Source of the DNA: Lytechinus variegatus
Taxonomy: Eukaryota; Echinodermata; Echinoidea; Temnopleuroida; Toxopneustidae
NCBI RefSeq assembly: GCF_018143015.1
Contig: NC_054758.1
Coordinates: 8,540,501 to 8,604,500 of the forward strand
Length of the DNA stretch: 64,000 nt
Direction: 5' to 3'
Shown here: positions 158 to 51,989 of the stretch, piece after piece
Layout of the letters: the number at the start of each line of letters is the position of its first letter
How positions within the stretch are numbered: position 1 is the first letter of the stretch
Translations under genes and position numbers: made by a program
Notes under the pieces: generated by a model
Database searches by the model: none
What the model saw: the letters and a program-made list of their open reading frames with translations, nothing else
Told to the model about the DNA's origin: nothing

Positions 158-277
158 ACGGCAGTGAAAACTCAATTTGAAAATATGCAGGTCTACAGGT
201 TTTTCTTCGGGCTAGATGATCTAAGTAGCGAAAATAATTTTCGATGGGCTGATGGCACGTTATTAAGCAAAACGGGG
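158..277 (+). CDS. Exon 1: N-terminal half of C-type lectin domain
   Basis: Follows an acceptor at ctacag and is in phase 0. The translation contains FFFGLDDLSSENNF-RWADGT, matching the W-I-G-L-x-D ... W-x-D-G-(S/T) stretch of C-type lectin domains. The donor is ggg|gtaaga. It ends in phase 0, while exon 2 needs phase 2. A run of five G directly at the donor would give the right phase if it had four, so either an assembly indel or a real lesion is present. Upstream CTLD residues must lie before the window. Confidence 0.75.
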
Positions 278-3200
278 GTAAGATTTATCGTATCATATTT
301 CTTCCTTTATTTTCGTGAACTTCTCAGTTACATTTACTACATCATTAACAGTTGTAGTAGTTAGAGATAGTAGTAGTGTCGTGGTAGTAGTAGTTTTAGT
401 AGAACAAGTAGTAGAAGTAGTAGTAGTACAAAAAAATCTACGTAAATTCAACGTAGACGACGCCACCGCCATCGTCACCGTGGCCGTTAGAAAACGGTGC
501 CTATAATCACGCTCTGTGCTAGCGAAACAAAATTTAATTTCCGGTAAACGAGGTGAATTTAAAACTGGTGTTACTCTTTCATTCCATGTTGTAGCTAAGG
601 TAACACTTTGAAAGAGAGGCCTAATCTAGGCCTCTTTTATACTTTGAAGGATTTTGATGAAAATAATTTCATGTTTTACTACGTATTAATTGGGACATTA
701 TTTCAATGATCATTTCCGATGCAATCATTGTAAAAAAATGCCTTATAAGGGAATCCTTACTGCATTGCCTATGGTGATAGCAATTGTAGACTGGTGATTT
801 AATAATTATGTTTTTCCGACTCACTTTCTAAGCAGTTATTGGAAGGTTGAAATAATGAATAATGATAACAAGCAGTGCCACTCAATCATAACTCTCAATA
901 TTGAAGATCATTAATTATGTGGTTTTTAACTGATCATGTGAGATAGAATAATATATATATTTTTTTATATTTATATATTTTAAGAAAGCGAGAATGTATA
1001 CAAGATATCACTATCTGACTCGTCGCATATTAAGCTACATCACATGCATACTAATGTTTCAAGAATTGATATATTTTGTTATTATTATTTTCATCCGACG
1101 TTTTATATGGAGTGTTGAGGCCAAGTGGATTAGTCTACAGACTTTGAAACAGAGGGTCGTGGGCTCGAATCCAAGCCATGGCGTAATTTCCTCCGACCCA
1201 GCTGATGTACCAGGCAGGAATTTATTCCTTAAAATGCCATCGCGCTTTAAAAGGCTGTGGCGCTAAAGCCATGGTAAAGATATCCAATCAAATGCGTAGT
1301 GACGCATTCGGTAGTGATATGCGCTATATAAGCATGTTGGTATAATTATTATTATTATTATCATGTCATTGTCGGTATGTGCTTGCTTGATTTTACTCTA
1401 CTTCTTGAAATGTTGATACTGTAGCCTCGATTACCCATTTTAATCAGTAACAACTATTTATCTTCATACTAATATGTAAGCAATGTTATAATTCATCAAT
1501 AACATATTTCTGTGATTGCACCAACATGCAGATATTCACTATGGATCGGCATGAACCCGGATAATTATGAAGGGTACGAACATTGTGTGGAGAGGAATTC
1601 AAACATTGGTTGGAATGATCTTTTTTGTAGCACTCAATTGAGATTTGTGTGCGAGAAACCAGAAGGTAGGTCTGAATTAATTGGATAATTTATTGGGGAT
1701 CTTCACCCAGCGACGTACAGAGATCCAAGAACAAAGAAAATGTATTGTCAAATACCCTTTATGACAAAGCAAAACCAAGGAGTCTTTGTCGAAATTTGAT
1801 TATTCAAATCAACAGTTCCATACAATCGACTTATTTGCAATTTTTCGTCAGTTCGGAAACTTAATTGACCTCCCATATGTCAATTTTTTCTTTCATGGGA
1901 GTACATTTATGGAGTTTTTTAATCAGCCATGCGTAGCGGAGCAAAAATACAACAACCCTGTTGGAACTGAAACATTTTCCTTTTTCATATAGATATTGTC
2001 GCACATATTTTCTATTTACATTTTACCATTTCACATCTCTGAGGGGGTGACATTTCCAAGGAATCATGTCGACCCACAAGAGCAAAGTGGCCAGGGGAAT
2101 CAATCAGATGTTCTTTAACGAAAGGCATATAATAGGCTATAACAATTTTTATCATTACCGTCTATGTATACGTCACATCCATTAACAGGTCCTAAATCAT
2201 GTTCAGCTCGGAATCTAAGTAGCAGTACGAGAAGATTTTCAATAATTATTCAACTCATGTGAATATATCACGATAAACATTAACATCTTCGTCATGATCG
2301 GCTTTGTTAATGACATAACTTGCGTAACCCCCCCCCCAAAAAAAAAAAATATATATATATATACATGTATGTATGTATCATTATGTATACATGCATACAT
2401 GTAAATATACTTATATATTACATAAATAAATGAAAATAGAAAATAGATAAATAGAAAAAATAAGAAATAATACAAAAAAGTAAAAGAATACAGATGATGC
2501 AACTACTCGTACCATATAGTTTAGCTAATATTTCTAGGTTTGCAGTCGGTAAACTATTTCTAATTTGTATGATCTTTTCTCTGCAGTACCTCCACTTCAT
2601 TTGATTGCGATGACGTCAACACCTTTCGGGAGCCCTGGGAACGCTCCAACTTTCTCTTGCGTTCTCTCACCGGACAACACACAGAATACCATAATCTACA
2701 CAGAGAGGGGAGTTAGACCAAGCCCCACTCCTGCAGGCTACACACTGGACGTACCGGGCTCGGAGGAAACTCTAAATGGCGGACTAACACAGAACCTACC
2801 TGATGAAGCGACGTCTGTTGGCGTTTATAAGTGCTCCACTACATCTACAATCACCGGTACTTCAACATCAGCAGATGTGACAATTCTCTCACAAGACAGT
2901 ACGTACGAACATAAAGTACATTAAAAATAATCTGACATTTGACTGAGATAATGAAATTAAATTTCAATTTATTTTCTCATAAAAATCCAAACAAAAACAC
3001 TACGTATACAAAGCATCGTATTAACAAAATAGAAAAAAAAACAAATAGAAATAAACATTTGATTGAATATGAGATTGAATATGCTTGATATCTACATAAA
3101 CAGAATTCCAGAGTTGTGGTCCTTGAAAAAAAAATTGAGTTTTTAAAAGATGAAAGTCTTGGCTTAGGTAAATGAAAATCCTTTGCATTTCTTGTGTTGT

Positions 3201-33200: not shown

Positions 33201-36200
33201 GTCAAATTCAAATGTATTTTATCATCACTACCACTTTCCCACGACGAGGAAGATTAAGCGACACGCCCCCAAGCGTTAAAACTCAGATCGATTTTATCGT
33301 CTGTCCTGCCTTTACAGATTCGAAATAATAAAGAAAAATAAAACATTACAACAAATAAAGAAATTATAAAAACTTTGTCCTCTACACGACATTAGCAATA
33401 CTGCAATTAGTATACATGTGATACTGCAAAATTGCAATTGTGATGTATATGTTGATGTAAAACAAAGAATACTTCCATAACAATTGCTAATCAAAGGGAT
33501 GAACAATCATGACGCGCGAATGGCATTATAAACATTACAAACCTGAAAAGGAGTATAATATATTTCCGTAAGAAGTTGAGATAAACATAGTTAGGCACAT
33601 TCCAACAATACACTCTAGTGGCATCGAATTATGTATTTCCTGTAATTATCAAACTTTCCTCACATCTCTCTTTCCTTACTTCATCCCGCTAGTCCTCTCT
33701 TACCATCCTTCAACTGTGTACGCAAACACACACACACTCTTGAGTTATTAAGTTATTGCAAAAAAAAAGTTTGTTTGTCTGGAGTCCTATTGTTATGCGT
33801 GCTTTTTATATTTTGTGTGTGTATTTGAAAACAATTTCACTCCATGCGTCTCTAATTCAAAGTCCTACCCCTTCTCCCCCCCCCCTCTCTCTATGTATCT
33901 CTTTTTTTCTCTCTCTCTCTCTCTCTCTCTTTTGATTATATATCCAATATGGTTCTTACTTTGATTACAGACGATTCATCAAGAGTTGTCCTGCCAATCA
34001 TAAATGGAGACCCTGAATCCCATTACTTCAACGCTTCATTTCTGCCGGTAAATAGGAACCCTTTCTAGATTTTGCTCTCTAAAAACACAAAAAAAGAAAA
34101 CACAAGTCATCTCTATTCCTTTTTCGCTTTTGTGTAGATTGAAATTTTGAATTTTTTTTTGTCATTTTTTTTTAAGTTCGTCACTATTCCCTATCTTTAT
34201 TTTGCTTTTTTATTTATTTTCTCTATAACTTCCAGAGCTTTGGAAATGAGCATGCATATATCGCCTCACAAGGTAAAGTTGTATTTCCTTTCTGATGTTA
34301 CCCCTCATATACCGATTGAAATAACACGGGATTTTAGCACCATTTGCACAGTACTTAGACATTCAAAGAAGCATAGACTTATTGCAAAGGGCCTATATTA
34401 GAAAATACTATTTTGTATGATAACTAAAACAAATATTTTCGGTATGTGTATTTATTATCTGTAATCTATTATCTGTAATCTACGTTTTACCATTTTCCGT
34501 AAATCTTGCTGTTCATAATAGATTAAGGAATAATTTATCTTTCAATAATCATAAAAAAACAACATCAACATAATAATCATTGGTACATGTAATACATGAC
34601 TTCTTCCTAGTCTCCTCAATTTACTTCCGTACAGAGGAGGGTTAGGGCAGCAAAATTCGATTTTTTATTTTGAAAAGGTGATTATTTTGCTTGCTCGCTA
34701 CCCTCGCTCGTAACTTTTTAAAAAATCCAATGTACATGTATGACATGTTCGCCCTCATTCGGAATTTGGCTCATTACACCGCAAATGGTAACAAAGGTTT
34801 TCTGTTTTCTGTATGATGTGATTTGAAATGTTAAAACAAATTGACTTATATCGATTGTTTTTCCAAGGCCCAAATAATGCGAGCATGATTGATTTCTGGC
34901 GGTTGGTATGGAAGGAGAATGTAAAAACAATTGCCATGGTAACGAACCTCCAAGAAGGAAACAAGGTTGGTCGCAAAATTTCTAACTCGTTCTCTTCTGG
35001 ATTTTGAAACCGTCGGTATCACATTCACGCCTGCATGTTGGTGTGTAGGCCTATCTGGTGTGGTTTATTGTCATTCCGTCTACTGTTATTTTGCTCACGC
35101 ACCCATTGTCTAATGTCATTTCGTCTATCATCAGTTGGTATACTATCCACATCGTCCAAACAGCATTTCGTCCAATTGCCACTTTGCCAAAAGCATGCTG
35201 GTCTAATAACCATTCCATCTATTATCATTTGGTCTAATTGCATTTTTTTTCCAATTGGTCCAATAGCCACTTTGTCCATTTTCATTTCGCCTATTACATT
35301 TTAATCCAATAGCCAACTGTCCCAAAGTTGGCTATTTTTTAGATGCACTTTAAAATTATCTTGATCAAGTCACTGAATTTTCTGATCGAATTTTATTACT
35401 CGGTTATCTCAATTGTAACACGTTAATAACAAATTCTTTATACAAAAGGCTTGATAAATTAGGGAGCTTGGGTGGACTAAATCAACTAATTCAACAACCA
35501 ACCCGAGCGACACCAAATTGTAGTATCCTACTCGCCTCTAATCCCTTTGGTACATTACAATTTTTTTAAGGATGATTTCATTGTATTCTTTCAACTCAAA
35601 ATTAATATTCACATTCCATAAACAAGTTGTTTAAATTTTTTGAAACATGATTATAAATTATACAATAAATCCATGTCCTATATGCAACTTATACATCAAA
35701 CATCAGATACTGGAAATTGATAATGATGCATTTCAACAATTGCAAAATGAAATATTAACAAGATGTATTAAATGACAAGAGAGAAAAACAGAACAATGAT
35801 AAAAATGTGATGTTCTACCTACAAAGGGGCAATATAGCTCTGGGGAAATTATGCTCTATCCCATTTTTTTTCACACGACTCATTTAGGACTTATGAATCT
35901 AACGTACAGTGCAGTCATGTTTCTCATTTTCATTCAGATAAAATGTCGCCAATACTGGCCAGAGTCGAAATCTGTGACCTTTGGTGACATCTTTGTCAAT
36001 TTGGAATCTGTTACGAATTGTACCGGAGGATTAAAGAGAACAATGTTCATGAAAAGGGTATGTGCGAGGAAAGTAATTTAGTTTAACAATTTAGATAAAG
36101 GAGAAATAAACCGTATATCAAGCAGATCGTACCCTTGTCTAGTTTAGAAGGATGTCTCGTATAACGATATTACTCGATAGTTCATTTGAAGTGTTGAGGC

Positions 36201-39200
36201 AGAAAATATTTCTTCAAATGATTTAGGAACGCTTCAAACTTTTGGAGATTAGGTCTATATAATCTGAGAATATTTTCAATGAACAGACTTTGTTTCTAAA
36301 AGTAGATATTTGTTTATTGAAAATAGGGACCGATACACATTTCCTTTATCTCAATATGTCCTACAGTTTTCATGACTATCGACGAAACAACTTTTTCTTA
36401 TAGATTTTTCTCCACGAAATCCGAATGCCGCTTAAAGATATTGGCTAAATTTCCAATGTGAAAGAAGTTATGACATAAAAAATTTAATTGTGTTCCTGAA
36501 ATTTATTATAAAAGCGAAATAAAGACAAGAATATTGAATACTCATGATTAGCGATTAATTGATTAATAAATATAAATGCCGAAAATTAAAATCTTTGTAT
36601 CAACGTTTCGTAAATTATCTATTTCCATGATTTGCAAAAGACACGTAAGGATAATAAATTCGGGGTGTAAAATTTAAAAAAATGATACTGATACAACCTT
36701 TTAATCTCAGTGAGAATTGCTATCCTACAAAATAATGTACTATGATATTTATGTAAAATTGCATTTTACAGATATCAAATACTCATGACATTGTGAAAGG
36801 TATTATTGAATTGATATAATTTCACATGAAATGGCATTAAACGGTTCTGTGAAGTAAATTTGTGTCTTTGATTTGAATAATGTATATTTTTATAGGGTGC
36901 CGACACCAAGGTTGTGAACCAGTTCCACTTTACTCAGTGGCCAGACAAAGCAGTTCCAAGCAGCACAAGTGTTCTGCTTAGATTTATTGATGAAGTGCAA
37001 AAGGATCATAGTCAAAATGACTCTCCTCTCCTGGTTCATTGCAGGTAATTACACATACTGTTATCCACCCCCTAGTCGGACAGCTACTCTATTAACTATC
37101 ATTCTATCCTCCTTAAATTATGACCGGATAAAGCATATTCATTCATTTACATTTCTTTATTTTGGTTATTCCATGTATCACCTTCGACCCCAATTTTGTC
37201 TCACCTCCATAGCAGAGTGAGACTATAGGCGGCGGCGTCAACATCAAATCTTAACCTAAGGTTAAGTTTTTGAAATGACATCATAACTTAAAAGAATATA
37301 TGGACCTAGGTCGTTAAACTTGGACATAAGGTTAATCAAGTATCACTGAACATCCTGCATGAGTTTTATGTCACATGACCAAGGTCAAAGGTCATTTAGG
37401 GTCAATGAACTTTGGCCGAATTGGGGGTATCTGTTGAATTACCATCATAACTTTGAAAGTTTATGGATCTGATTCATGAAACTTGGACATAAGAGTAATC
37501 AGGGGAGCGTTTCTTGAAAGGACTTGTCAGACGTTTTATCCGACAGTTACTATAGTAACAGTGCTTCTCAACCAATCAGAATCCAGGTAATTTGTCAGAT
37601 CTGACAACTTGTCGGACCAAAATATTGATGAAACGCCCCCCAGGTATCACTGAACATCCTCTGCGAGTTTCAGATCACATGATCAAGATCAAAGGTCATG
37701 TAAGGTCAATGAACTTTGCCCATGTTGGGTTTTTTTGTTGAATAACCATCATATCTCTGTAAGTTTATTGGTCTAGGTCATAAAAAAGTGGACATAGAGT
37801 AACCATGTATCACTGAACATCTTGTGCGAGTTATAGTAGTTTTCAAAGTCAGCACTACTGCTATATTGAACAGCGTGATGCAGGTGAGACGGCCAGAGGC
37901 ATTCCACTTGTCTTTTTATTCACACGATATACCTCTTGCTCTTCATTCCATTCAACTCAATAAATTTATTGACATGTAATAGTTTTAAGAAACGTGAATT
38001 TCCTCAAACCGTCGATACTTTACATATAGGTACTTTTAAGTGCATGGGAAAAGTTTATTACATTTGGAACACAAACCACAAATCTTTATTCCAACAACCG
38101 AAACAAACAAAATATCTCGTATCCAGAACACACACAACAAGCCTTGCTATTTAATGGGTCCCTCCATTTGCTCAAGTATACTTTAGCAAAAACAATAGAT
38201 AAAAATACATATGTTATATCCTTGCTTCTGCTCGTCATTCATCATAATATTTTTTCTTATTCATCATATTGTATATCCATGTAGTGCTGGTGTTGGAAGG
38301 ACTGGTGTAGTGTTGAGCATTGACAGTGTGGTAGCTGAAGCCAAGAGAACCAATCAAGTGGATATCTTTGGATACGTGTCCAAGATGAGACAACACCGCC
38401 CTTACATGGTGCAGACACAGGTAGGTGGTTGGTTACGTAATACAACTATTTATTATTATAATATTGTTACCCTGTATCTTGTTTGGTAAGATCCGATACC
38501 CAAGATTTTAATATGTTCATAACTTCATAAAGCTTTGTTTTTTTATGATTTATATGATTTATCATTATAGAAGATCTTAACACAGCCAGTACATTTGAGA
38601 TACATGAAGGTAAATAAAATAATTGTGAACTTTTAAAACAGACATTTTTTTATTGATATCGCGTCTCACCAAAACAACTAGCATATTGCTTTTCAATTGC
38701 TTTCACATTTTTTATGAGCACCCCTTTTTCAAGAGTGTGGGATAAAGTATATTTTATTTCTTGTATCACTTTTTGCATAAATTATTTTTCTAGGAGCAAT
38801 ACAAGTTTGTGTACATTGCAGTCCTGGAAGCTCTCTTGTCTGAAAATACCAGAATCCAAGCCTGCTACTTTGAATCTGCATTGATGAAACTTCAAGTAGT
38901 AACCAGAAACAAAAAAGGGATGTCCACTCTACTGGGCAAACAATTTCAGGTAAGATAAAACAGTCACAACACTAAGTCTATGGTCGCACGAACGAAACCG
39001 ACTTTAACCAACCATAACATTTTCGTCCGTGTGCAGTTGGTTTCATCGGCGTGCCTGTCTGCTTGACGCATTACTCAATTACAACAAACATTCGTGACTA
39101 GCAACAAGCATGGGACAAGAGTAATTCTGAATCCTAAAATAACATATACATGTAGATAATTATATCCAAATATATATATTTGCATGTTTGGATGTGAATT

Positions 39201-42200
39201 TCTGTAATGTGAATAGTTAGCACAATCGGTCATAAAAACATAAGCCCATTCTAAGTACCGACCAGTGTAGGTCATCAGAAACCAAAATCAAATCAGTCAT
39301 ATGCAGCCCAACGCCATGTTAACATATAATATCTATGAAATGGAATCAGGGAACGAAGTAATGACATGTCGCTCAAAGTTGATATTGAGATTTTTTGAGT
39401 TTCAATGAACACTTCCTAAACATTAAAATGATATATTAATTATTGGTCAACTGTAACCTCATGAGAAGTTGATGGAAAGGAGAGGAAATTCACCGAGAGC
39501 TCAATAACAAATAAGACGAAAACCAGTTTTAAGTTCGGGGTTCACTTGACCATGAGATGCCTGTTGCATATTGTGCTATGTCAGTGAAACTTCCACCATT
39601 CCCCCAAAATGTTGTCAAAGAAACCCTTTTTATTATTTGTTTTACCTTCGCAACTTAGTTCTTTCCAGTAAAGAGATTTGTCCTGTCCGAAAAGCAAATT
39701 TGGTAATTTGCTATTTAAAGAGAATCATGCCTGGCAACTTATTTTTTAGGTTTGGAGTAGCTGGTCAAAAATAGTACTAGTTTCTGGATTTTTTCCTTTT
39801 TTCTCTGTGTTTTGTAGAACCTGACGATCGTTTGCCCTGATCCCCCAGCAGCAATGGTAAGAACTGGTACACAGGCTGAAAATCGGTCAAAGAGTCGATA
39901 TGCCAATATTCTTCCACGTAAGTATTTACTTTCATAAACATTGGTTTGTAATTCAAACAATTAATTTTTATGCATGATAGACAAATCTCTGCTTACTTTC
40001 CGCCAAAAAATGTCATTCAACTGATTTTGTTTTAAATCACAAACATCATTACTAGCATGATACACAAACCCAAAAATATTTGGAATAGATAAATGAATTC
40101 ATTCTGAAAAAATATTGTGAATTAGAATCAATTAAATGGAATTAAAGTGAATTACAAAACCTACATATACGAATGCAATTACAATATGCCGAACAGCAAT
40201 CGGCTCTTTCATACGAATTATTCCATCGTTTCCCCCCTCAGTGGAAAGGAACCGTGTTATTCTGCAATCTAAGAGCTCTTCGGATTCTGACTTCATCAAC
40301 GCCAGCTTCGTTAGGGTATGTTTATTATTGATTGGTCAGATTTTAGCTGCATGGAAAATAAATAATTGGGAACATAATGTATGATTTTTTTTTCATTTGA
40401 TTCTAGTTTTCCATATTGCACGATTGATACTGATCATTGTTACATAAATGTTAACCAAGAAGCATCTTCAGTATAAAGATGAACATTGACCAATTATTAC
40501 GATTTTAATTTAATTATACCAATGTGCAAAATTGGATAAGTAGCTGATTAGCGTGCCAAGGGTTAAATAATAATTCAAGGGTCGACGTTTATATAAGTAT
40601 TCGAATATTTGAATAAGTTCAACATCTTTTTGTGATCCGAACACAAGGCAAACCTTTTTTGTTTATTTATGTTTGATTTGGATTATCATTACCAAAGAGC
40701 TGTTGTATGAAAATTATCACTATTCACTCCGATATCAGAGGTAAAGTAAAATGCTTTACACAATCCTAAATATACCGGTGAGTTTTTCATGAACGGACCG
40801 TCCGGATGTTCTATCTGACAGTTACCATAAATAATGAGCATCTTATCCATTCAAAATCAAGAGAATTCGTCAGATCGGACAACTTGTATGACGAAAAAAA
40901 ATGTTGATGAAACACCCCCCCTCCCCTTGTAAAAGTCGTCACTCCTGACGAAGAGCAACCACTCGAAACATCGAGATCCAAAAGTTATTCTCAGAATTTC
41001 ACCAAAAACAATCAAGAATTGCCTACATGGTGCATTCACAGACCTGCCATCTAATCCAATCCTAAACATTTTAACATCCTTCACTTCACTGTACCCATTG
41101 GTTTTTCTATCGTACAGGGCCTTCGATACGGATTCATCACAACACAGATGCCCATGCCGAATACCGTTGGTGATTTCTGGTCAATGGTAATCGACTATCA
41201 ACCCGCGATCATTGTTATGCTCAATGATGACAGCCGTGATAAGGTATACATAGTATAAGTTTATATCATTCCTTAAAACCATTATACAGCTATGGTAAAC
41301 ATGTATACTGCTATTTCATTTTCTCCATCTGAGTCTGAGTAGTCTATTCTACATTAACCGTTCCCGTTGGTTGTATTTGTGGTACAGAGTACAGCAATGA
41401 TTACTGATGATTCTCATTTAGGCTAATATTAAAAAAATGTAGAAGGGATTTGGAAATGGCACTACTTAGATATTAACCTCCAATGGCAACAATTACGGTG
41501 AAAAGAGTTGCCATTATGATTTCCTATGTAATCAAGGTCAGGTTGTCTTGCCAAATTTCGATCAAAGGAATTCCAAAAGCGTAATGAGATGATACTCTGC
41601 CTTAATGAGTCATATGTTACTTCAATGTGATGTTTTTCATCATCGAGAGCATTAGTAAGATATACACGCACGAGTTACATTTTGATCAGTTCTAACACAC
41701 CCGAGGCAAAGCCGAGTGTATTTGGACTGCCTCAAATGTAACAAGTGTGTAATCCAATCCGGATGCCTATTAAAGCAGAATGACGGGTGTGTTTTGTAAG
41801 AAAGAGATGTGGGTGCTCGTAATTTGAGTGACGACCCTTCGCTCAGTAACAAGATTATAATGTTCAGTAGATATATGTACATGTTATACATGTACATAAG
41901 TACTAGTCCTTATCAAATTATCCTGTTAGCTAAAATGAATAAAGGGTCACTTGACCGATTTCAGGCAATCGTTTGGTTGGGATCCAAATCACCATTCTGA
42001 AAGGTTACATTAGCTAACGGCCTCAAAATCATATAGCAGCAGCCCTTATCGAGACAGTCTGTCTCCATCCTGTTCTCTCCATGAGGGAAGGGATATTCAG
42101 TGAAGTCTAGCTCTGTTACCATTGGTGGAGATCCACCAGAAATCGGGGAATTTATCTTCCATGATGTATGACAGATTCAAGAACATACACTGTAAAAACT

Positions 42201-45126
42201 GTGGTGTTAAAACTGACACCAATTGGTGTTAATAGAGGACCACACCCAGAGGTGTTAGAATTACACCCTAGAGATTGAACAGAACACCAAAGAGAGTAAA
42301 TGTAACAACCAAAGGTGTTGTAATAACACCTATAGGTGTAAAACTAACACCACCAATTTAAGACCGGTGTAAAATAATTTGTGTGGTCCTCTATGTACAC
42401 CAGTTAACACCACAGTTTTTGCTGTGTAGAAAATACATGTATATTACCAAATCTTTGTTGAAAATTGATGAATCAAAATGGCTGTTTCGTCCTGGAATTT
42501 GGACAAATCACATATTTGCAATTTTCGTCAGCTCTGAAACTTAGGGCGAAACTGCTTCCCGGTTCATCAATCTTCGATATAAACCCCGGGCTGTTCATTG
42601 CCATATGACGTCATTTCAATACATTCACTGTGTTCTTGAAAGCGTCGTGTGTCTTCGGAGCGGAAACTCCCCCATGTAATCCATTATCACAATTTTATAC
42701 ACTCCTTTACAGAGTTGCGCTCAATACTGGTTTGACAATAGCGTTACAACCTTTGGATCTGTCTCTGTAACCACGCTGTCAGTCTGTGAAAGAGAAGGGT
42801 TCATTATCAGAGAGCTTCAAGCAACTCGGGACAACTCACAGGTAACTACCGACGAGAACGTCATTATTCTTTATATACATAAGCAGTAATGAAGTAGTAA
42901 CTACAATACTCAATAGGCTTTATTAATGAAAACGAAAGCGTACACTCAGATTTTTCAAACTAATCTAGAAGTTTGTTCAAATATAAACCACTGTTGGAAA
43001 ATTGCATTAGAAATTGACATACTAAAGCTTTTCGACATGCACTCATCGGAGTAAAATCGCATGACTTAACATTACGCCAGAACAAAGCAATATGATGGAT
43101 CTAAAGAGACGTTATTCGAGCTGTCAGTTTGTTTTATGTTATCTTCCGATTTTACAGGACCAAACATTTAATTCACCGTTAGTTTAAAGGAAAGGGCGTG
43201 GAAAATGAATTGGATTTTTTGAACCAATAGTTGGTCAGCTCATAATTTTTCAACTTTTTGGTTAGTTACAAGAAATTCCAGGAGTGTTCCCAGATTTCCC
43301 AGTAATTCACATAAGTACATAGTAAGATTCATAAGACTTGACTTCAATAATATAGGACAAAGGACGCTTATGTATGATCTAAATTTGAATAAGTGCTTTA
43401 TAAATATTTGAATCTGAAGGTTTGTCACGTTGTGAAGCAGTACCAGTTCCTGGAGTGGCCAACTAAAGCAAAACAACAGAGAGACCGTGCCAAGAGTCTC
43501 CTTGATTTCATTGGAGAGGTTGAGGATTCTTTCAGCGACATTTCAGAGGAGTTTCCGGTCGTTGTTCACTGTCTGTAAGTTCACAATCTTGGTCATCACA
43601 TTTATTGCAATTTGTTCTATTGTTAGGAACAAATTTACATTCATATCCCATTGGGTAAGGGTAACGAATAATGGGTGACGTTGAAAAGCTCTCTGGAATG
43701 ATGTAACAGGATGTAAGGTCTAATCCTCATCGCAAGTGAGACTCAAGATCATTAATGCGCATAATTACAAAATTCTTTCAGTTTACTGGACCAAAATAAA
43801 GATATCAATTGTTTTCCATCTCTGCCATCCCAAGTACAAACATAATCAAAAGCTGGTAGGGTTTACCGGACGAGTCATCTGTAACATCGCCATTTTTGTT
43901 TTCTTTTTTTAAGTTTGGCAGTAACTGCGCCCTATTCTTCGACCTATAATCTACAAACTTTAGTCAATTAAGAGTACCTTGAAGTTTGGGTCACATCTTT
44001 ATGTGGTCTTTGACGGGGATCTCCACACTTGCTACAGAAACAAAACAATGAAGTATCCTGAAAAACTGCTGTGAAATCCCTCGTAATGCAACTAATTTCT
44101 AATAACTACTTGATGTTTCTATTGTATATTTAAATTCATGTTCAAGGAACGGTGTTGGTCGAACTGGTGTCTTCTGTACAACTCTAGAGTGCATTAAGCA
44201 GTTGAACACAGAGGACGCGGTTGATATATTTCAAATGGTCAAGATGCTCCGGAATGAGAGGACGCACTTTGTACAAACGGAGGTAATTGATTATCATGAC
44301 ATGGGCGTCAGCGCAAAGAACCTTATTTTGTTCATAGGGGTACATCTGTCGTTGCGCCCCCCCAAAAAAAAAAAAAATAATAATAATAATAAAATAAATA
44401 AATAAATAATGTTTATCTGCACTGACGGCCATGTATCAGGGGAGCGTTTTGTGAAAGGTCCTGTCGAATGTTTTATAAAACAAGAGATTGGTTTTATCTG
44501 AAAGATTTTATACAAACATAGAGTGCTTCTCAGTCAATCAAAATCAAGAAAAGTTAACAGATCTGACTTGTTTGACAAAAATATCGATAAACCATTTTAA
44601 TAATGCACCCGAATTCAAAAGACCTACTTGTAAAATGAGCAATGATATAAAAATACAATAATTTCAAATCGCAACTCCCCTATTGGCATTGATTACTAAT
44701 GATACTTGTAATGCCACGCACTTTCCATCTTAATTGCTCAAGGAGTTTCAGAGCAAATTTAAAATAGATTTTTCCATTATCTAACTTTTTTATTGTTGTG
44801 GAAAATAGGAAGAATACACTTTCATCCACGAGTTGATCAATGAATACCTACATGAAAATGACTACGAGCAGCTACCTGTACCGGTAGAGGATGACGAACA
44901 CACGTACGGGAACGTGGAGTCTACCGCAGCCCCGGATGTGACGGGCGAGGGCGTGTATGAGATTGCAAGCATCCAAGATGGCGCCGGGAACAGGCCCGTG
45001 TCGTATCGTAACCTTGCAGGAATAGATGGCAGGCAGAGTGTTGCTGCTGCAGAGCAAACGAGCACTGAGGAACGAACAGCTCAACCACCGAGAGACGATG
45101 TCTATGAAAATGTGAATTACCGGTAA
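158..45126 (+). CDS. Receptor protein tyrosine phosphatase with C-type lectin and Tie-like ectodomain (5'-partial, 29 exons)
   Basis: Spliced from exons 158-277, 1532-1665, 2587-2898, 10401-10682, 11292-11426, 11805-11954, 12524-12655, 16637-16807, 17280-17399, 17897-18187, 18814-19242, 19460-19571, 30337-30404, 31353-31618, 32292-32379, 33971-34047, 34236-34272, 34868-34965, 35938-36057, 36896-37044, 38285-38420, 38794-38949, 39818-39917, 40242-40315, 41118-41243, 42713-42841, 43420-43574, 44147-44282 and 44809-45126. All introns are GT-AG and phases agree except exon 1/2. Residues below count from the window start, total about 1,539. Order: CTLD 1-84, Ig 85-189, Ig 190-283, EGF x5 284-519, Ig 520-616, FN3 617-759, TM about 770-792, juxtamembrane to 890, D1 890-1190, D2 1215-1440, tail to 1539. 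Family knowledge: such proteins are single-pass surface receptors that dephosphorylate phosphotyrosine. The ligand is unknown; the lectin and Tie-like modules suggest glycan or secreted-factor binding. The signal peptide and start codon lie before the window. Confidence 0.9.
345..427. repeat. TAG trinucleotide microsatellite
   Basis: Interrupted (tag)n/(gta)n with a few other triplets. The open frames over it on both strands are low-complexity and not genes. Confidence 0.85.
1108..1365 (+). mobile_element. tRNA-derived SINE
   Basis: The head has a Pol III box-B-like stretch (gggctcgaatcc) about 40 nt after an A-box-like gattagtctacaga. The body (ccatggcgtaatttcctcc ... aggaatttattccttaaaa) recurs at 25745-26046 and 27625-27892 on the other strand, and the tail ends in (att)n after gcgctatataa. 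Confidence 0.75.
1532..1665 (+). CDS. Exon 2: C-terminal half of C-type lectin domain
   Basis: The acceptor is aacatgcag and the donor gaag|gtaggt. The frame gives YSLWIGMNPDNYEGYEHCVE, then GWND..C....LRFVCEKP, the classic CTLD ending with the WND motif, the second and third disulfide cysteines and C-E-K-P. A canonical EPN or QPD sugar-selecting triplet is not clear; NPDN occupies that place, so sugar specificity cannot be read off. It ends in phase 1, matching the Ig exon that follows. Confidence 0.8.
1666..2586. other. Intron 2: AT-rich, poly-C/poly-A and TA/TG microsatellite
   Basis: Mostly AT-rich. Around 2328-2420 a C9 A10 (ta)n block is followed by atgtatgtat/atacatgcatac repeats. Nothing coding was recognised. 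Confidence 0.6.
2587..2898 (+). CDS. Exon 3: Ig-like domain 1
   Basis: A symmetric 1-1 phase exon of 312 nt between ctctgcag and aca|gtacgt. It holds one Ig fold: first Cys in F-S-C-V, second in V-G-V-Y-K-C with the usual G-x-Y-x-C spacing of about 65 residues. Low similarity to any one Ig subclass can be judged by eye; its place directly before a second Ig and Tie-like EGFs suggests the first Ig of a Tie-type ectodomain. Confidence 0.8.
2930..7212 (-). pseudogene. Decayed non-LTR retrotransposon (CR1/L2-like LINE), endonuclease and reverse transcriptase
   Basis: Read on the minus strand. 7100-6176 encodes an apurinic endonuclease domain (N-S-R-S-L-L-N-N, T-E-T-W-F, G-I-F-V-N-N, L-L-G-D-Y-N-I, S-D-H-L-P). 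6197-5970 is the inter-domain part. 5532-4999 is reverse transcriptase with A-F-D-T-V-D-H, V-P-Q-G-S-I-L-G-P-L and F-A-D-D-T. The C-terminal part (R-A-x-R-I..., then N-A-K-D-F-H-L-P) continues at about 3420-2977. Several frame breaks are present and 3464-4789 is an inserted element, so it is dead. It sits antisense in intron 3 of the phosphatase gene. Confidence 0.9.
3464..4789. mobile_element. Long-TIR DNA element with TA duplication (Tc1/mariner-like), inside the LINE
   Basis: Begins TACAGTGCGTATAAAAAAA and ends in its inverted counterpart TTTTTTTATACGTACTGTA. The inverted repeats run about 290-300 bp each (to about 3760 and from about 4490), roughly 85 percent alike by eye. TA sits on each side (3462-3463 and 4790-4791). 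The LINE resumes in the same order on either side. No transposase was recognised in the 0.7 kb between the arms, so it is non-autonomous. Confidence 0.8.
7213..9450. mobile_element. 2.2-kb element with about 280-bp terminal inverted repeats, inserted in LINE
   Basis: Ends are AGTCCGGCAGCCCAGGAGG and its inverse. Arms 7213-7490 and about 9175-9450 are over 90 percent alike by eye. The interior has two diverged direct copies of a 190-bp stretch (near 8757 and 8950, each with atcagytacatataaag). The flanks 7191-7212 and 9452-9474 are near-copies of each other (aagtaga.att.aatagaa.at). No transposase was recognised; family unknown. Confidence 0.8.
9451..10060 (-). other. Possible upstream remnant of the LINE
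   Basis: A 104-codon minus frame at 10026-9712 (LRKRNVL ... FVGGECDDK) is unassigned. Its place just upstream of the interrupted LINE suggests a 5' part of it, but the link is not proved. Confidence 0.35.
10310..10357. repeat. 48-bp palindrome (CACTGT...ACAGTG)
   Basis: Near-perfect inverted repeat centred on gtgctaaattagcac with outer ends CACTGT/ACAGTG, about 45 nt upstream of the exon 4 acceptor. It may be a minimal MITE. Confidence 0.65.
10401..10682 (+). CDS. Exon 4: Ig-like domain 2
   Basis: 282 nt, phase 1-1, from tttctag to agtg|gtaagt. The sequence reads as an Ig-type sandwich (YSGDDITLSV ... GEIRW ... D-A-D-V-Y-G) but lacks the usual Cys pair: the position after D-x-Y is Gly, not Cys. 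It is an Ig fold without the core disulfide, as in some Tie and titin-type Ig modules. The acceptor is weak in pyrimidines, but frame and phase fit both neighbours. Confidence 0.75.
11292..11426 (+). CDS. Exon 5: EGF-like domain 1 (Tie type)
   Basis: 135 nt, phase 1-1. It encodes DCPRG-W...CDRLCDNCYNGG-ICHPQSGTC-ICPPGFMGKNC. The run C-I-C-P-P-G-F-M-G is, from memory, the same as in the first EGF of vertebrate TIE2, and the spacing of eight cysteines is of the Tie/laminin sort. Extracellular. Confidence 0.9.
11805..11954 (+). CDS. Exon 6: EGF-like domain 2 (Tie type)
   Basis: 150 nt, phase 1-1. It encodes ACGEHQFGWEC ... ICLPDPYGCDC ... GYTGIYC. The CLPDPYGC core is a hallmark of the second EGF of Tie receptors as I recall it, and is not typical of generic EGF repeats. 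This is the strongest single clue to Tie ancestry of the ectodomain. Confidence 0.9.
12524..12655 (+). CDS. Exon 7: EGF-like domain 3 (Tie type)
   Basis: 132 nt, phase 1-1, from tttacag to caag|gtttgt. The translation has C-T-P-G-K-F-G-V-D-C, C-H-C, C-D-A-F-T-G-S-C and G-W-S-G-E-G-C, the x-PGxxGxxC ... GWxGxxC pattern of Tie EGF 3. The donor (gtttgt) is slightly weak but keeps the phase. Confidence 0.88.
13310..13390 (+). repeat. tRNA-like / SINE head fragment
   Basis: The stretch tagctcaattggttgagagc matches a Pol III A box as in tRNA D-arms, followed by a tRNA-like body. It then runs straight into ATT repeats, as SINE tails do. No intact tRNA cloverleaf was confirmed. Confidence 0.45.
13395..14620. 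repeat. 1.2-kb ATT/ATC/CTT microsatellite tract
   Basis: Almost wholly (att)n, (atc)n and (ctt)n with small unique islands; a 60-bp block around 13720-13780 recurs at about 14005-14070 (atgatcataggaca.. then ttattattgtaattaaaataattcctt). The long open frames here are low-complexity artefacts. Confidence 0.9.
14819..16562. other. Intron 7: unassigned
   Basis: Unique-looking sequence. 15290-15740 is oddly rich in ctag/tctag and taggcct words. 16085-16160 has an inverted pair tatgcccgt...acgggcata. No coding exon recognised. Confidence 0.45.
16563..16636 (+). repeat. SINE tail fragment supplying the exon 8 acceptor
   Basis: aagcgctatataaagca followed by attattatcatc mirrors the 3' tail of the SINE at 1108-1365 (gcgctatataagcat ... 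attattatt). It abuts cag|TTCC of exon 8. Confidence 0.55.
16637..16807 (+). CDS. Exon 8: EGF-like domain 4
   Basis: 171 nt, phase 1-1. It encodes VCPVGYYGINC-TEFCNC ... C ... GFC ... GQCEIGF ... DRCAT, an EGF/laminin-like module with a longer tail. The intron side of its acceptor is SINE-tail-like sequence (gcgctatataaa...attattatcatcacag), so the splice acceptor may come from an inserted SINE. Confidence 0.85.
17280..17399 (+). CDS. Exon 9: EGF-like domain 5
   Basis: 120 nt, phase 1-1. It encodes GCFESCSKTCHC ... TCDESGSCTSC-HPRWSGDNC. The acceptor must be the first of two overlapping cag sites (atcttgcag); the second would break the frame. This is the last EGF before the membrane-proximal Ig and FN3. 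Confidence 0.85.
17400..18813. other. Introns 9 and 10: no recognised elements
   Basis: Two introns on either side of the Ig exon; AT-rich with no clear repeats or open frames of note. Confidence 0.5.
17897..18187 (+). CDS. Exon 10: Ig-like domain 3
   Basis: 291 nt, phase 1-1. An Ig module: I-I-S-C-T-F ... about 50 residues ... T-I-Y-C-F-V, with N-S-T and N-F-T glycosylation sequons. An Ig between the EGF block and FN3 is the Tie arrangement. Confidence 0.82.
18814..19242 (+). CDS. Exon 11: fibronectin type III domain with basic, furin-like insert
   Basis: 429 nt, phase 1-1. FN3 hallmarks are present: L-V-I-A-W-D-S-W, G-P-V-I-G-Y-K-V-Y, L-D-D-G-Q-S-Y-L-I-Q-I-S-A-V and the terminal S-V-T-T-R-E. 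An insert of about 40 residues between strands C' and E is rich in Arg and Lys (ESSRRRRED, then PSRKKRQGD). RKKR at 19086-19097 fits the R-x-K/R-R proprotein convertase consensus. Cleavage in a membrane-proximal FN3 is known for LAR- and PTPmu-class receptors; cleavage here is inferred. Confidence 0.88.
19460..19571 (+). CDS. Exon 12: transmembrane helix
   Basis: Phase 1 in, phase 2 out. A short Pro/Ser stalk (EPPPGPSSTGA) runs into a glycine-rich then fully hydrophobic stretch (GGAVGGIIFIVLLIVIIIIV) and a stop-transfer LRWRR. The orientation is outside to inside. The next coding exon is 10.8 kb away but joins in matching phase. Confidence 0.92.
19806..21442. mobile_element. Giant foldback palindrome, about 790-bp arms
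   Basis: atgacgtcactgtctgtacg at the left returns as its complement at the right end, and the arms match almost throughout (for example ccgcgcgggccaaattgaatt, ctatataaaaatatagtaac, cctgttgtgaaggaaaacg). The centre is near 20624 between ctcgccttggctgag and its inverse. It lies in the intron just after the transmembrane exon. It has no gene; best read as a foldback or non-autonomous TIR element. Confidence 0.88.
21656..21935. mobile_element. 280-bp hAT-like MITE with 8-bp duplication
   Basis: Inverted ends GGGCGGAAATCCC / GAGATTTCCGCCC. TTTGACCA occurs on both sides (21648-21655 and 21936-21943). The inside has repeated gtccccctac words. Confidence 0.75.
22240..22438 (-). mobile_element. SINE, 3' part (split by the next element)
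   Basis: Matches the body of the SINE at 48800-49098 (caaagcgcttc, cccggtcactgg, aagtgtggattgacgcctt). The other part resumes at 25629-25717; removing the insert and one CGACG restores the expected gcctt...gacgctaggcc. Confidence 0.82.
23724..23888 (+). other. Open frame after an acceptor-like site, unassigned
   Basis: Inside the RSS-like element, tattccacag is followed by an open frame of about 54 codons to TAA with normal-looking composition (VQQAQPLPPDVQ ... TKDIMVVEITERDS). It could be the last exon of a lost transposon gene or a captured host exon. I do not recognise it. Confidence 0.3.
24151..25284. mobile_element. piggyBac-like non-autonomous element (TTAA flanks)
   Basis: TTAA at 24147-24150 and 25285-25288 flank ends CCCTAAATAGACTGG and CTTTTTAGGG. 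Both ends continue with ggggctgattcagcccc. Nested in the RSS-like element. A diverged relative of its right half (cacgttttgagt.., gcatgcactt, ..tacccaggg) is seen at about 26575-26900. Confidence 0.7.
25629..25717 (-). mobile_element. SINE, tRNA-like 5' part
   Basis: On the minus strand: TGGCCTAGCGGTTCC (A box) and GTTCGAGTCC (B box). Together with 22240-22438 it forms one SINE broken by the RSS-like element. Confidence 0.8.
25745..26046 (-). mobile_element. tRNA-derived SINE
   Basis: On the minus strand the B box gggttcgatccc is followed by the same body as the SINE at 1108 (ccatgacgtgatttc, ggaatgtattccttga) and a tail with gcgctataaatatt. Confidence 0.75.
27005..27620. mobile_element. 616-bp foldback MITE with TTAA ends
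   Basis: TTAAAGGACAAGTCCACC and its inverse bound two arms of about 200 bp that match (gagccagttacatccaaatgagag; aaaatcggatgtaaaataagaaa). TTAA at both ends may be the target duplication. Confidence 0.8.
27625..27892 (-). mobile_element. tRNA-derived SINE inside the hAT element
   Basis: On the minus strand: tggcccagtggattagtc, tttgaaacagagggtcgtggg, a damaged B box (gtgcaaatccc), then ccatggcgtaatttcc. Same family as 1108-1365. Confidence 0.75.
28093..30053 (+). pseudogene. 5'-truncated CR1/L2-like LINE, reverse transcriptase
   Basis: 28115-29095 encodes a near-intact reverse transcriptase: V-I-P-L-F-K-K-G-D, Y-R-P-I-S-L-L, L-D-F-S-K-A-F-D-T-I-N-H-D, V-P-Q-G-S-L-L-G-P-L, F-A-D-D-T, K-T-N-Y-M-L-F, and F-L-G-V-T-V-D. 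A frameshift near 29100-29160 moves to a second frame ending at 29501 (WNSLHNDLRNS, FKRKLKSFL). The 5' half with the endonuclease is missing and the 3' UTR ends near aaatgaaataaatgac. More open and so younger than the 3-7 kb LINE. Confidence 0.88.
30337..30404 (+). CDS. Exon 13: cytoplasmic juxtamembrane segment
   Basis: 68 nt, phase 2 in, 1 out, from ttttttctag to acag|gtatgt. It encodes (R)RKPRPKPVSYSYDNDYIGG, basic then tyrosine-rich, typical of a juxtamembrane region. There is no alternative hydrophobic segment of real length before it, so it depends on exon 12 for membrane anchoring. Confidence 0.82.
30405..31352. other. Intron 13: unassigned
   Basis: AT-rich, no recognised repeats or exons. 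Confidence 0.5.
31353..31618 (+). CDS. Exon 14: juxtamembrane linker and start of PTP D1
   Basis: 266 nt, phase 1 in, 0 out. A Ser/Thr/Pro/Lys-rich linker with three KST repeats leads into PIPISQFATLVQ ... MFYEEFH, the alpha-1' helix and E-E-F entry of receptor PTP D1 domains. The donor is cat|gtaagt. Confidence 0.87.
31619..33970. other. Introns 14-15: small tandem duplication, CT microsatellite
   Basis: Mostly unassigned. 33166-33305 has two diverged direct copies of a 75-bp unit (cgacgag..a.tttagcgacacgc, cccaagcg). 33860-33935 is a C/CT-rich tract ending near exon 16. Confidence 0.55.
32292..32379 (+). CDS. Exon 15: PTP D1, pTyr-recognition loop
   Basis: 88 nt, phase 0 in, 1 out. It ends with FEKNRYKNILP, the K-N-R-Y motif whose Tyr stacks on the substrate phosphotyrosine in active PTPs. 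Confidence 0.92.
33971..34047 (+). CDS. Exon 16: PTP D1 beta-sheet (YDSSRV...YFNASF)
   Basis: 77 nt, phase 1 in, 0 out. Y-D-S-S-R-V and H-Y-F-N-A-S-F are conserved PTP motifs 2-3. A CT microsatellite ends about 40 nt before the acceptor. Confidence 0.92.
34236..34272 (+). CDS. Exon 17: PTP D1 micro-exon (YIASQ)
   Basis: 37 nt only, between aacttccag and caag|gtaaag. It encodes SFGNEHAYIASQ, the Y-I-A-x-Q(G-P) motif completed by the next exon. Phase 0 in, 1 out. Too short for ordinary gene finders, but required by frame. Confidence 0.88.
34273..34867. other. Intron 17: fragment resembling 4080-4160
   Basis: 34620-34740 has tttgcttgctcgctaccctcgctcg, similar in style to gagcgagcgaagtgagc at 4125, probably old mobile DNA. 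Otherwise nothing. Confidence 0.4.
34868..34965 (+). CDS. Exon 18: PTP D1 (GP...DFWRLVW)
   Basis: 98 nt, phase 1 in, 0 out. It completes Q-G-P and gives D-F-W-R-L-V-W-K-E and I-A-M-V-T-N-L-Q-E-G-N-K. The donor is gttggt, weaker than the others. Confidence 0.9.
34966..36895. other. Introns 18-19: degenerate ATTTGGTC minisatellite
   Basis: 35045-35330 is built of loose copies of a 12-18-nt word such as catttcgtctaat / ccaattgccactttg / catttggtctaat. The remainder is AT-rich and unassigned. Confidence 0.55.
35938..36057 (+). CDS. Exon 19: PTP D1 (KCRQYWP)
   Basis: 120 nt, phase 0-0. IKCRQYWPES is the K-C-x-x-Y-W-P motif of PTPs, followed by the strand leading to the WPD loop. Confidence 0.92.
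36896..37044 (+). CDS. Exon 20: PTP D1 WPD loop
   Basis: 149 nt, phase 0 in, 2 out. It encodes F-H-F-T-Q-W-P-D-K-A-V-P, so the general-acid Asp of the WPD loop is intact; the usual Gly of W-P-D-x-G-V-P is Ala. It ends in P-L-L-V-H-C, the start of the P-loop, which is split by the intron. Confidence 0.94.
37200..37905. repeat. Tandem repeat, about 190-bp unit, with MITE insert
   Basis: Three diverged units share cataactt.aaagtttatgga, acttggacataagagtaatc, agtatcactgaacatcctg, cacatgaccaaggtcaaagg and tcaatgaactttg. A 140-bp MITE (37502-37645) sits inside the second. Similar units occur in other marine invertebrates as I recall. Confidence 0.75.
37502..37645. mobile_element. MITE family A, copy 1
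   Basis: Ends ggggagcgtttcttgaaagg and gatgaaacgccccc, with ccaatcagaatcc in the middle. Relatives lie at 40782-40925, 44439-44600 and 51352-51495. Confidence 0.7.
38285..38420 (+). CDS. Exon 21: PTP D1 catalytic P-loop
   Basis: 136 nt, phase 2 in, 0 out. Joined to exon 20 it makes H-C-S-A-G-V-G-R-T-G, the full HCx5R(S/T) signature. It ends R-P-Y-M-V-Q-T-Q, the Q-loop completed by E-Q-Y in exon 22. D1 is therefore predicted to be catalytically competent. Confidence 0.95.
38794..38949 (+). CDS. Exon 22: end of D1 and D1-D2 linker
   Basis: 156 nt, phase 0-0. EQYKFVYIAVLEALL is the last helix of D1; the rest (ACYFESALMKLQ ... GKQFQ) is the linker into D2 found in tandem receptor PTPs. Confidence 0.92.
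39818..39917 (+). CDS. Exon 23: start of PTP D2
   Basis: 100 nt, phase 0 in, 1 out. N-R-S-K-S-R-Y-A-N-I-L-P parallels K-N-R-Y-K-N-I-L-P of D1; the N of KNRY is Ser here. Confidence 0.9.
40242..40315 (+). CDS. Exon 24: PTP D2 (NRV...DFINASF)
   Basis: 74 nt, phase 1 in, 0 out, equivalent to D1 exon 16. ERNRVILQS ... DFINASFV. The D2 exon cuts mirror those of D1, showing domain duplication with intron positions kept. Confidence 0.9.
40782..40925. mobile_element. MITE family A, copy 2
   Basis: Diverged: gagtttttcatgaacgga, tctgacagttaccata, cagatcggacaacttg, gttgatgaaacaccccc. Confidence 0.6.
41118..41243 (+). CDS. Exon 25: PTP D2 (FITTQ...DFWSMV)
   Basis: 126 nt, phase 0-0. YGFITTQMPMPNTVGDFWSM then I-I-V-M-L-N-D. 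In D1 the same region is split over exons 17 and 18. Confidence 0.9.
42186..42428. mobile_element. GGTGTT-rich MITE, copy 1
   Basis: Ends TACACTGTAAAAACTGTGG and CCACAGTTTTTGCTGTGTA. The interior repeats ggtgtta/taacacc many times in both directions. In intron 25. Confidence 0.85.
42713..42841 (+). CDS. Exon 26: PTP D2 (CAQYW)
   Basis: 129 nt, phase 0-0. S-C-A-Q-Y-W-F-D matches K-C-x-x-Y-W-P with the Pro changed to Phe, an early sign of D2 drift. Confidence 0.9.
42842..44146. other. Introns 26-27: unassigned
   Basis: No repeat or coding signal beyond exon 27 within it. Confidence 0.45.
43420..43574 (+). CDS. Exon 27: PTP D2 degenerate WPD loop
   Basis: 155 nt, phase 0 in, 2 out. Y-Q-F-L-E-W-P-T-K-A-K: the catalytic Asp is Thr. 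It ends V-V-V-H-C, keeping the P-loop start. The donor is gtct|gtaagt. Confidence 0.92.
44147..44282 (+). CDS. Exon 28: PTP D2 P-loop
   Basis: 136 nt, phase 2 in, 0 out. With exon 27 it gives H-C-L-N-G-V-G-R-T-G, so Cys and Arg stay but the loop Ala is Asn. The Q-loop, completed in exon 29, reads Q-T-E-E-E-Y, with the second Gln replaced by Glu. Together with WPT this predicts little or no D2 activity; a regulatory role is known for D2 domains in this family. Confidence 0.92.
44439..44600. mobile_element. MITE family A, copy 3
   Basis: ggggagcgttttgtgaaagg, cagtcaatcaaaatcaag, cagatctgacttg, atatcgataaacc. The right end is decayed. Intron 28. Confidence 0.6.
44809..45126 (+). CDS. Exon 29: end of D2 and tyrosine-rich tail, stop codon
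   Basis: 318 nt to TAA at 45124-45126. The last D2 helix (EEYTFIHELINEYL) is followed by a tail of about 88 residues with YEQL, YGNV (Tyr codon 44905), YEIA, YRNL (45004), YENV (45103) and a final NYR. Three of these are Y-x-N, the Grb2 SH2 consensus. PTPalpha carries one such site at its C-terminus in vertebrates. Confidence 0.93.
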   Translation, partial: EEYTFIHELINEYLHENDYEQLPVPVEDDEHTYGNVESTAAPDVTGEGVYEIASIQDGAGNRPVSYRNLAGIDGRQSVAAAEQTSTEERTAQPPRDDVYENVNYR

Positions 45127-51596: not shown

Positions 51597-51790
51597 TTTG
51601 GACGTTTTTTCTATGTACAGTCACACCAACGGATCCAATTCTAAGCCGATCAATGGTATGTCATTGAAATTCATATGATAGATTTGGTCGGTCGGGAGAC
51701 GGTTACACCTTTAAACATAGTATACCACGAGGGTCGAGGACGGATAAAGTACAAAGTTTAAACGAGTTGGGCTCAAAGCGTACGGCGTAC

Positions 51791-51962
51791 CATTTGGACA
51801 GATTTGGTCGATCTTGAAGACGCAGTACACACCGGGCATCCAAGGCCAAGAACTCGGTGCTGCTTTGGCAGTGTTCTTCACGCAGTAGGTCCGGAAGTCT
51901 TTGTTGCAATAGTTGGTCAAATGGTTCCCTCTAGAACAGGTATTTCCCGAGTTAGTTGTTAC
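51791..51962 (-). CDS. Possible ApeC/apextrin-like exon (isolated)
   Basis: On the minus strand, between acceptor tatgtatcag and donor aatg|gtacgc, an open frame reads VTTNSGNTCSRG ... YCNKDFRTYCVKN ... SSWPWMPGVYCVF ... ICPN. W-P-W-x-P-G-x-Y-C and C-P-x-G recall the ApeC domain of echinoderm apextrins, secreted glycan-binding defence proteins. The expected following D-D-E-D segment was not found nearby on this strand, so this may be an exon fragment. Family placement is tentative. Confidence 0.4.
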
Positions 51963-51989
51963 CTGATACATACTAAGAAATAAAGGTTA

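Follow-up and report, generated by a model that had tools for sequence, protein, structure and literature searches.

A tandem receptor tyrosine phosphatase carrying a Tie2-type head in the sea urchin Lytechinus variegatus

A 64,000-nucleotide stretch of the Lytechinus variegatus genome (NC_054758.1, positions 8,540,501 to 8,604,500; hereafter the window) contains a gene that joins a Tie2-type extracellular head to a tandem receptor-type protein tyrosine phosphatase (RPTP). Splice-site scoring gives 28 exons on the forward strand (1532–45126), with 27 of 27 junctions in phase and a frame that stays open to the stop at 45126. In order, they encode the end of a C-type lectin domain, two Ig domains, five EGF-like exons, a third Ig domain, an FN3 domain, a transmembrane segment and two protein tyrosine phosphatase (PTP) domains, D1 and D2; from Ig1 onward this is where a preliminary description, made from the DNA letters, had placed them. 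The explanation that we favour, at a probability of roughly 0.6, is that the gene encodes an echinoid tandem RPTP with a lectin and a Tie2-type head, that this receptor would pair against a Tie kinase, and that the head has moved between the two kinds of enzyme in deuterostomes.

The arrangement recurs in a homologous protein of Strongylocentrotus purpuratus (P0001; LOC115924937, 1586 amino acids), which in tblastn matches 25 of 29 exons, collinearly between 152 and 44285. Tblastn leaves four exons unmatched: the transmembrane exon, 30337–30404, 34236–34272 and the tail. The first three fall inside a single BLASTP alignment of the spliced window protein with P0001 (70% identity over 1403 columns), and the tail exon is matched by P0006 (61%, tblastn). 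Because these matches run across the exons in order, the architecture is not a product of chance. The join from 19571 to 30337, which the preliminary description proposed between the two halves, is likewise found in P0001. Among named proteins, those of Strongylocentrotus and Lytechinus come closest, and several Lytechinus proteins carry both halves. Pfam finds two Y_phosphatase stretches in the window protein (4.4e-139) and no kinase domain of Tie type, PTP domains standing in its place; the fn3 match (2.5e-4) lies below the Pfam cut-off, and a Pfam scan of the first two Ig exons returned nothing significant. Every exon between 2587 and 19242 is of phase 1-1, the class that can be shuffled with the frame intact.

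The head (Ig1-Ig2-EGF1-3) is of Tie2 type in the window protein, which bears out the earlier claim of a Tie-like outside. EGF1-3 match Tie2 in sequence; Ig2 is recognized by profile (urchin Ig2 against Tie1 Ig2: hhalign probability 96.5, E = 7.7e-10, with two controls under 1); and in predicted structures of relatives, P0012 among them, the Tie2 binding-head arrangement is retained over 300 residues. Ig2 is the angiopoietin-binding domain of Tie2. The likeness claimed for the EGF modules holds for the first three, as only three of the five EGF-like exons match Tie2. In the structure comparison of a tick model, ranking by Z put Tie2 first; Foldseek's own ranking was led by titin-like and contactin chains, with Tie2 at ranks 4 and 7. 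Beyond the head, the window lacks the three FN3 domains that follow the third Ig in Tie, having one Ig exon and one FN3 exon there. A starfish Tie-like kinase used as a query matched only head exons in the window. In pairwise alignment, the window protein and the starfish kinase P0036 agree over window residues 49–717, and the window transmembrane segment starts near 730; the amphioxus RPTP P0031 and the Tie kinase P0108 agree over 10–620, with the P0031 transmembrane segment near 629. In both pairs homology ends at the border between FN3 and the transmembrane segment, where the window has a phase-1 intron; P0031 is a single gene model that may be chimeric, and we gave it little weight.

Two basic motifs of the FN3 exon, RRRR and RKKR, hint at furin cleavage; RPTPs of the R2B class are furin-cleaved. 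Sites of the form R-X-K/R-R lie ahead of the transmembrane segment in 6 of 28 proteins checked (the window protein, P0001–P0003 and the hemichordate proteins P0192 and P0202).

The intracellular part was correctly recognized at the outset as a tandem RPTP: a single transmembrane segment is followed by cytoplasmic tandem PTP domains, whose best PDB relatives are PTPRA, PTPRS, PTPRE and LAR. D1 retains KNRYKN, WPDK, HCSAGVGRTG and the Q-loop QTQEQ, and looks catalytically competent; in D2, WPD has become WPT, so this domain is probably weak or inactive. All trees were built from hand-chosen representatives. In the D1+D2 tree (32 rows, 548 columns), a clade (100/100) unites 20 Tie-headed RPTPs with one hemichordate relative and two mollusc RPTPs and stands apart from LAR (R2A), PTPRA/E (R4) and four amphioxus RPTPs, and constraining the 20 Tie-headed RPTPs and the hemichordate as one group is not rejected (p = 0.17). 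Asteroid and ophiuroid RPTPs were left out of this tree because their D2 is incomplete. Assignment to R2B was considered and not adopted. It had been prompted by Fn3_PTPRU, which is above the Pfam cut-off in all four relatives scanned, two from ticks and two from hemichordates, and by a resemblance of D2 seen by eye. The rows listed included no solved R2B D2, and bit scores for an unverified R2B D2 sequence do not favour the assignment for the window protein.

At least one YxN motif, the kind preferred by the Grb2 SH2 domain, lies within the final 110 residues in 11 of the 15 proteins looked at, and the other 4 have none. It stands at the very end in tick P0072 (YSNF), hemichordate P0192 (YANF), crinoid P0019 (YANP), holothurian P0023 (YANM) and urchin P0021 (YANY). 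The window tail also has one site resembling an immunoreceptor tyrosine-based inhibitory motif (ITIM); both this site and the YxN motifs are pattern matches only.

In the kinase-domain tree (20 rows), vertebrate, amphioxus (P0069 and P0108), ophiuroid and starfish sequences form a Tie clade (96/95), and the nearest solved kinase to P0069 is Tie2 (292 bits versus 225 for FGFR1). The Branchiostoma kinases P0062 and P0064 fall outside this clade, the nearest solved chains to P0064 being FGFR and RET (a two-copy EGFR construct aside). The tree of heads (Ig2+EGF1-3; 44 rows, 249 columns) tracks lineage more than enzyme. Forcing the kinase heads to be monophyletic costs 174.75 log units (p = 3.1e-5), 153.13 on EGF1-3 alone (33 rows) and 74.71 on Ig2 alone (31 rows, two too-short rows dropped). 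The cost is still 35.62 (p = 0.0027) in a reduced tree of 29 rows, which omits the amphioxus rows and asteroid RPTPs (possible gene-model errors), P0017, P0030, P0079, P0102, P0041, P0044 and three rows of unknown enzyme. In a 26-row tree, two asteroid RPTP heads and eight asteroid kinase heads form one clade (100/99); forcing the asteroid RPTP heads to the urchin-B RPTPs costs 28.37 (p = 0.0007), and forcing together 11 echinoderm RPTP heads (urchin-B, asteroid, holothurian and crinoid) costs 48.00 (p = 7e-5). Over EGF1-3, the Patiria kinase P0037 is 74% identical to the Acanthaster phosphatase P0026 and 50% identical to P0141, a nameless row clustering with vertebrate Tie kinases. Taken by themselves, the phosphatase halves resemble a single old lineage, and so do the kinase halves, with heads crossing between the two; the trees suggest that the Tie head passed between kinase and phosphatase more than once, in echinoderms perhaps in either direction.

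Phosphatases with Tie-like EGF modules occur in ticks, hemichordates and five echinoderm classes, and in the tick and hemichordate relatives the head, FN3 and PTP domains follow the same order as in the window. The combination of a Tie-like outside with a phosphatase, put forward in the preliminary description, is present; given this spread and the more complex pattern of the head tree, a single event is not supported. Acanthaster carries both forms (phosphatases P0026 and P0028, kinase P0056), with heads in one asteroid clade (100/99). No kinase form was among the matches listed for chelicerates, which, together with the chelicerate spread of the phosphatase form, suggests that the phosphatase association of the head is perhaps the older one. 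We would give even odds to a fuller history, in which the Tie head is a bilaterian module older than the present Tie kinase and sat on an RPTP in the ancestor of ticks and deuterostomes, repeated exchange between receptor tyrosine kinases (RTKs) and RPTPs later produced lineage-specific pairs, and echinoids added lectins and expanded the family.

Several related gene models deserve mention in their own right. The amphioxus Tie kinases are P0069, which has a thrombospondin type 1 domain, and P0108, which holds two Tie-like units in one model and probably represents two adjoining genes. P0062 and P0064 have a Tie-like head on their kinases outside the Tie clade; one model, P0062, also holds a fibrinogen-like domain (2.6e-64) and a SAM domain, so that a domain of the kind found in angiopoietin ligands would be part of a receptor. 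P0045 (Holothuria) and P0046 (Anneissia) are named Tie, have no kinase match and end after a short tail; they are possible decoys or broken models.

Under the explanation that we favour, the locus would encode a type I membrane receptor that belongs to a gene family of echinoids and is built from one or more C-type lectin domains, the Ig1-Ig2-EGF1-3 head, extra EGF modules, an Ig, an FN3, a transmembrane segment, D1, D2 and a Grb2-type YxN tail. We infer that the head recognizes the same class of ligand as Tie heads do, or that the lectin binds a surface glycan; clustering or competition would then let the phosphatase reach tyrosines phosphorylated by a Tie kinase with a like head, so that the two receptors would form a pair whose enzymes oppose each other. 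That one ligand class could drive opposite tyrosine chemistry was also suggested in the preliminary description. The extracellular unit, which in this gene consists of phase 1-1 exons and ends at the border of FN3 and the transmembrane segment, would have moved between kinase and phosphatase during deuterostome evolution by gene conversion or by recombination in phase-1 introns of related genes. If this is true, an exchangeable common head would allow a single ligand to govern the two sides of a tyrosine switch, and the angiopoietin/Tie system would originate outside vessels and outside vertebrates.

A number of results weigh against this explanation. Enzyme labels are clustered on the head tree, where the kinase label needs 6 changes against a mean of 13.2 when shuffled (0 of 500 shuffles as low). 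The vertebrate heads do not group with the amphioxus heads, so the deep part of that tree is not reliable. The asteroid case consists of two Acanthaster gene models only, and the asteroid kinase heads group at 64/74 in the 26-row tree, with the RPTP heads sister to them there and nested only in the 44-row and the EGF1-3 and Ig2 analyses. The amphioxus RPTP P0031, one model, may be chimeric and include part of a Tie kinase gene. Placement of the asteroid and ophiuroid RPTPs rests on D1. In a D1 tree of 51 rows, the Tie-headed RPTPs are not a clade (5 label changes, at least 3 of them forced by starred branches), and two hemichordate rows are placed with classical RPTPs (99/95). In another D1 tree, of 30 rows, 17 ambulacrarian rows come together (98/96) and asteroid RPTPs join those of urchin-B at 79/83, a branch that is not starred; a single Tie-headed clade is not rejected there (p = 0.12). 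Both D1 trees have a weak backbone. The Ig1 domains of urchin and tick phosphatases find no profile match in Tie1 Ig1 (probabilities 3.3 and 2.4), though the structures match, and the lectin exon at 158–277 is out of frame in the assembly.

It might be held that two genes, one Tie-like (158–19571) and one an RPTP (30337–45126), were strung together by exon chaining into an artificial protein. A 10.8-kb intron with a retroelement does lie at the junction, and a separate sea urchin Tie kinase, SpTie1/2, exists according to a citation in PMC12113024. The single S. purpuratus protein that spans both halves and the junction at 70% argues the other way, as do the Lytechinus proteins that hold both halves, the restriction of the starfish kinase match to head exons, and the equal order of head, FN3 and PTPs in ticks and hemichordates, and we regard a chimera as very improbable. 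An ancient fusion with no later exchange is harder to dismiss. One RPTP and one RTK would each have gained a Tie head once, and the mixed head tree would reflect short, fast-evolving domains or bad gene models. The head alignment has just ~250 columns and weak deep nodes, P0031 may be chimeric, the D1+D2 and kinase trees each resemble a single lineage, and enzyme labels are still clustered. Set against this, four tests, including one from which the doubtful models were left out, reject monophyly of the kinase heads, the grouping of asteroid with urchin RPTP heads is also rejected, and the EGF1-3 of the asteroid kinase P0037 are closer to those of the asteroid phosphatase P0026 (74%) than to those of the vertebrate Tie1-type kinase P0141 (50%). 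We consider such a history unlikely.

A different function for the same protein is possible, if doubtful. The head would serve as a scaffold while the lectin binds pathogen or self glycans on coelomocytes, making the protein an inhibitory immune phosphatase with neither an angiopoietin-like ligand nor a link to a Tie kinase. The N-terminal lectin domain, matches from Lytechinus pictus that carry at least eight different gene numbers among those listed, and a tail with YxN motifs and one ITIM-like site are in keeping with this role. A mere scaffold would hardly need the Tie2 binding-head arrangement kept over 300 residues, however, and Lectin_C was not found in the two hemichordate and two tick relatives scanned.

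Table 1. Exons and domains of the Tie-headed phosphatase gene (positions within the window)
Feature	Position	Strand	Evidence or remark
Lectin exon, first part of C-type lectin domain	158..277	+	Donor phase 0; P0001 166-207 matches 152-277, 62%
Exon, end of C-type lectin domain	1532..1665	+	Lectin_C 5.4e-11, both lectin pieces joined by hand
Exon, Ig-like domain 1	2587..2898	+	P0001 65%; predicted structure of relative P0012 superposes on Tie2 from residue 23 on
Exon, Ig-like domain 2	10401..10682	+	hhalign against Tie1 Ig2
Exon, EGF-like 1 (CICPPGFMG)	11292..11426	+	Matches Tie2
Exon, EGF-like 2 (CLPDPYGC)	11805..11954	+	Matches Tie2
Exon, EGF-like 3	12524..12655	+	Matches Tie2
Exon, EGF-like 4, past the Tie2 match	16637..16807	+	tblastn with relatives
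Exon, EGF-like 5	17280..17399	+	tblastn with relatives
Exon, Ig-like domain 3	17897..18187	+	tblastn with relatives
Exon, FN3 with basic insert (RRRR, RKKR: furin-like); final exon of the unit common to Tie kinases	18814..19242	+	fn3 profile
Exon, transmembrane segment	19460..19571	+	Inside BLASTP alignment with P0001
Exon, juxtamembrane	30337..30404	+	Inside BLASTP alignment with P0001
Exon, juxtamembrane and start of PTP wedge	31353..31618	+	
PTP D1 and linker	32292..38949	+	KNRY, WPD, HCSAGVGRTG present
PTP D1/linker exons 1-4	32292-32379, 33971-34047, 34236-34272, 34868-34965	+	
PTP D1/linker exons 5-8	35938-36057, 36896-37044, 38285-38420, 38794-38949	+	
PTP D2	39818..44282	+	HCLNGVGRTG retained; WPD -> WPT
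PTP D2 exons	39818-39917, 40242-40315, 41118-41243, 42713-42841, 43420-43574, 44147-44282	+	
Last exon, C-terminal tail and stop; three YxN motifs (YGNV, YRNL, YENV)	44809..45126	+	

The N-terminal C-type lectin of the preliminary description stands in part. Lectin exons are found at the 5′ end of the gene; the join of 158–277 to the next exon is out of frame because its donor leaves phase 0 and the sole acceptor found (1532) needs phase 2. A run of five G lies at this donor, and the break could stem from an assembly slip, reflect an allele or be a lesion. In P0001, about 165 residues precede the part matched by the first exon in the window, and there are two Lectin_C stretches, so the gene probably begins upstream of the window. 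The intron between the transmembrane and juxtamembrane exons holds a reverse transcriptase open reading frame of a retroelement without long terminal repeats (non-LTR) at 28046–29167 (+; RVT_1, 6.2e-39). Further non-LTR pieces (reverse transcriptase, endonuclease) lie in introns of the gene at 5002–5598 (−) and 6176–6970 (−). Downstream of the gene, 51711–51986 (−) encodes part of the C-terminal domain of an apextrin (ApeC, E = 1.3e-7), which belongs to an echinoderm surface or immune gene family. A sequence resembling a G-protein-coupled receptor spans 53120–54246 (+; 7tm_1 in the first of two overlapping frames, E = 2.3e-5, short of the curated cut-off), which may reflect an intron, a frameshift or a pseudogene.

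The architecture is already present in public protein records, many of them labelled ‘uncharacterized’. We found no published description of a Tie head on a phosphatase in a search that lay mostly outside the subscription literature, and an earlier description is possible. Kinase and phosphatase receptors are usually viewed as separate families with different outsides. The window gene is a variant of the receptor-type PTPs, and the point for specialist attention is the exchange of one head between opposite enzymes. It differs from Tie1/Tie2 (TEK) by two more EGF modules, one FN3 instead of three, the lectin domain(s), and phosphatases in place of a kinase. With SpTie1/2, reportedly present in coelomocytes and the axial organ (going by the title of a 2010 report by Stevens), it shares being a Tie family receptor of an echinoid, and differs in that SpTie1/2 is a kinase; no S. 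purpuratus kinase row was among the matches listed. The tandem RPTPs PTPRA/PTPRE (R4), LAR/PTPRS (R2A) and PTPRM/K/T/U (R2B) have in common with it a transmembrane segment, an active-looking D1 and a degenerate D2. It differs from them by its Tie-type head, MAM is absent from its Pfam matches, and its D1+D2 lie outside R2A and R4.

Paired immune receptors have near-identical outsides and opposite signalling insides, exchange sequence among paralogues, and signal through adaptors with ITIMs or their activating counterparts (ITAMs); in the pair proposed here, both partners would themselves be enzymes. CEACAM receptors are an example of activating and inhibitory pairs (PMC2110893). In vertebrates, VE-PTP (PTPRB) is the phosphatase of Tie2, according to PMC10815196. 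It would share with the window gene the role of a phosphatase opposing Tie signalling, whereas VE-PTP itself is of the R3 class, with FN3 repeats only, a single PTP domain and no head in common.
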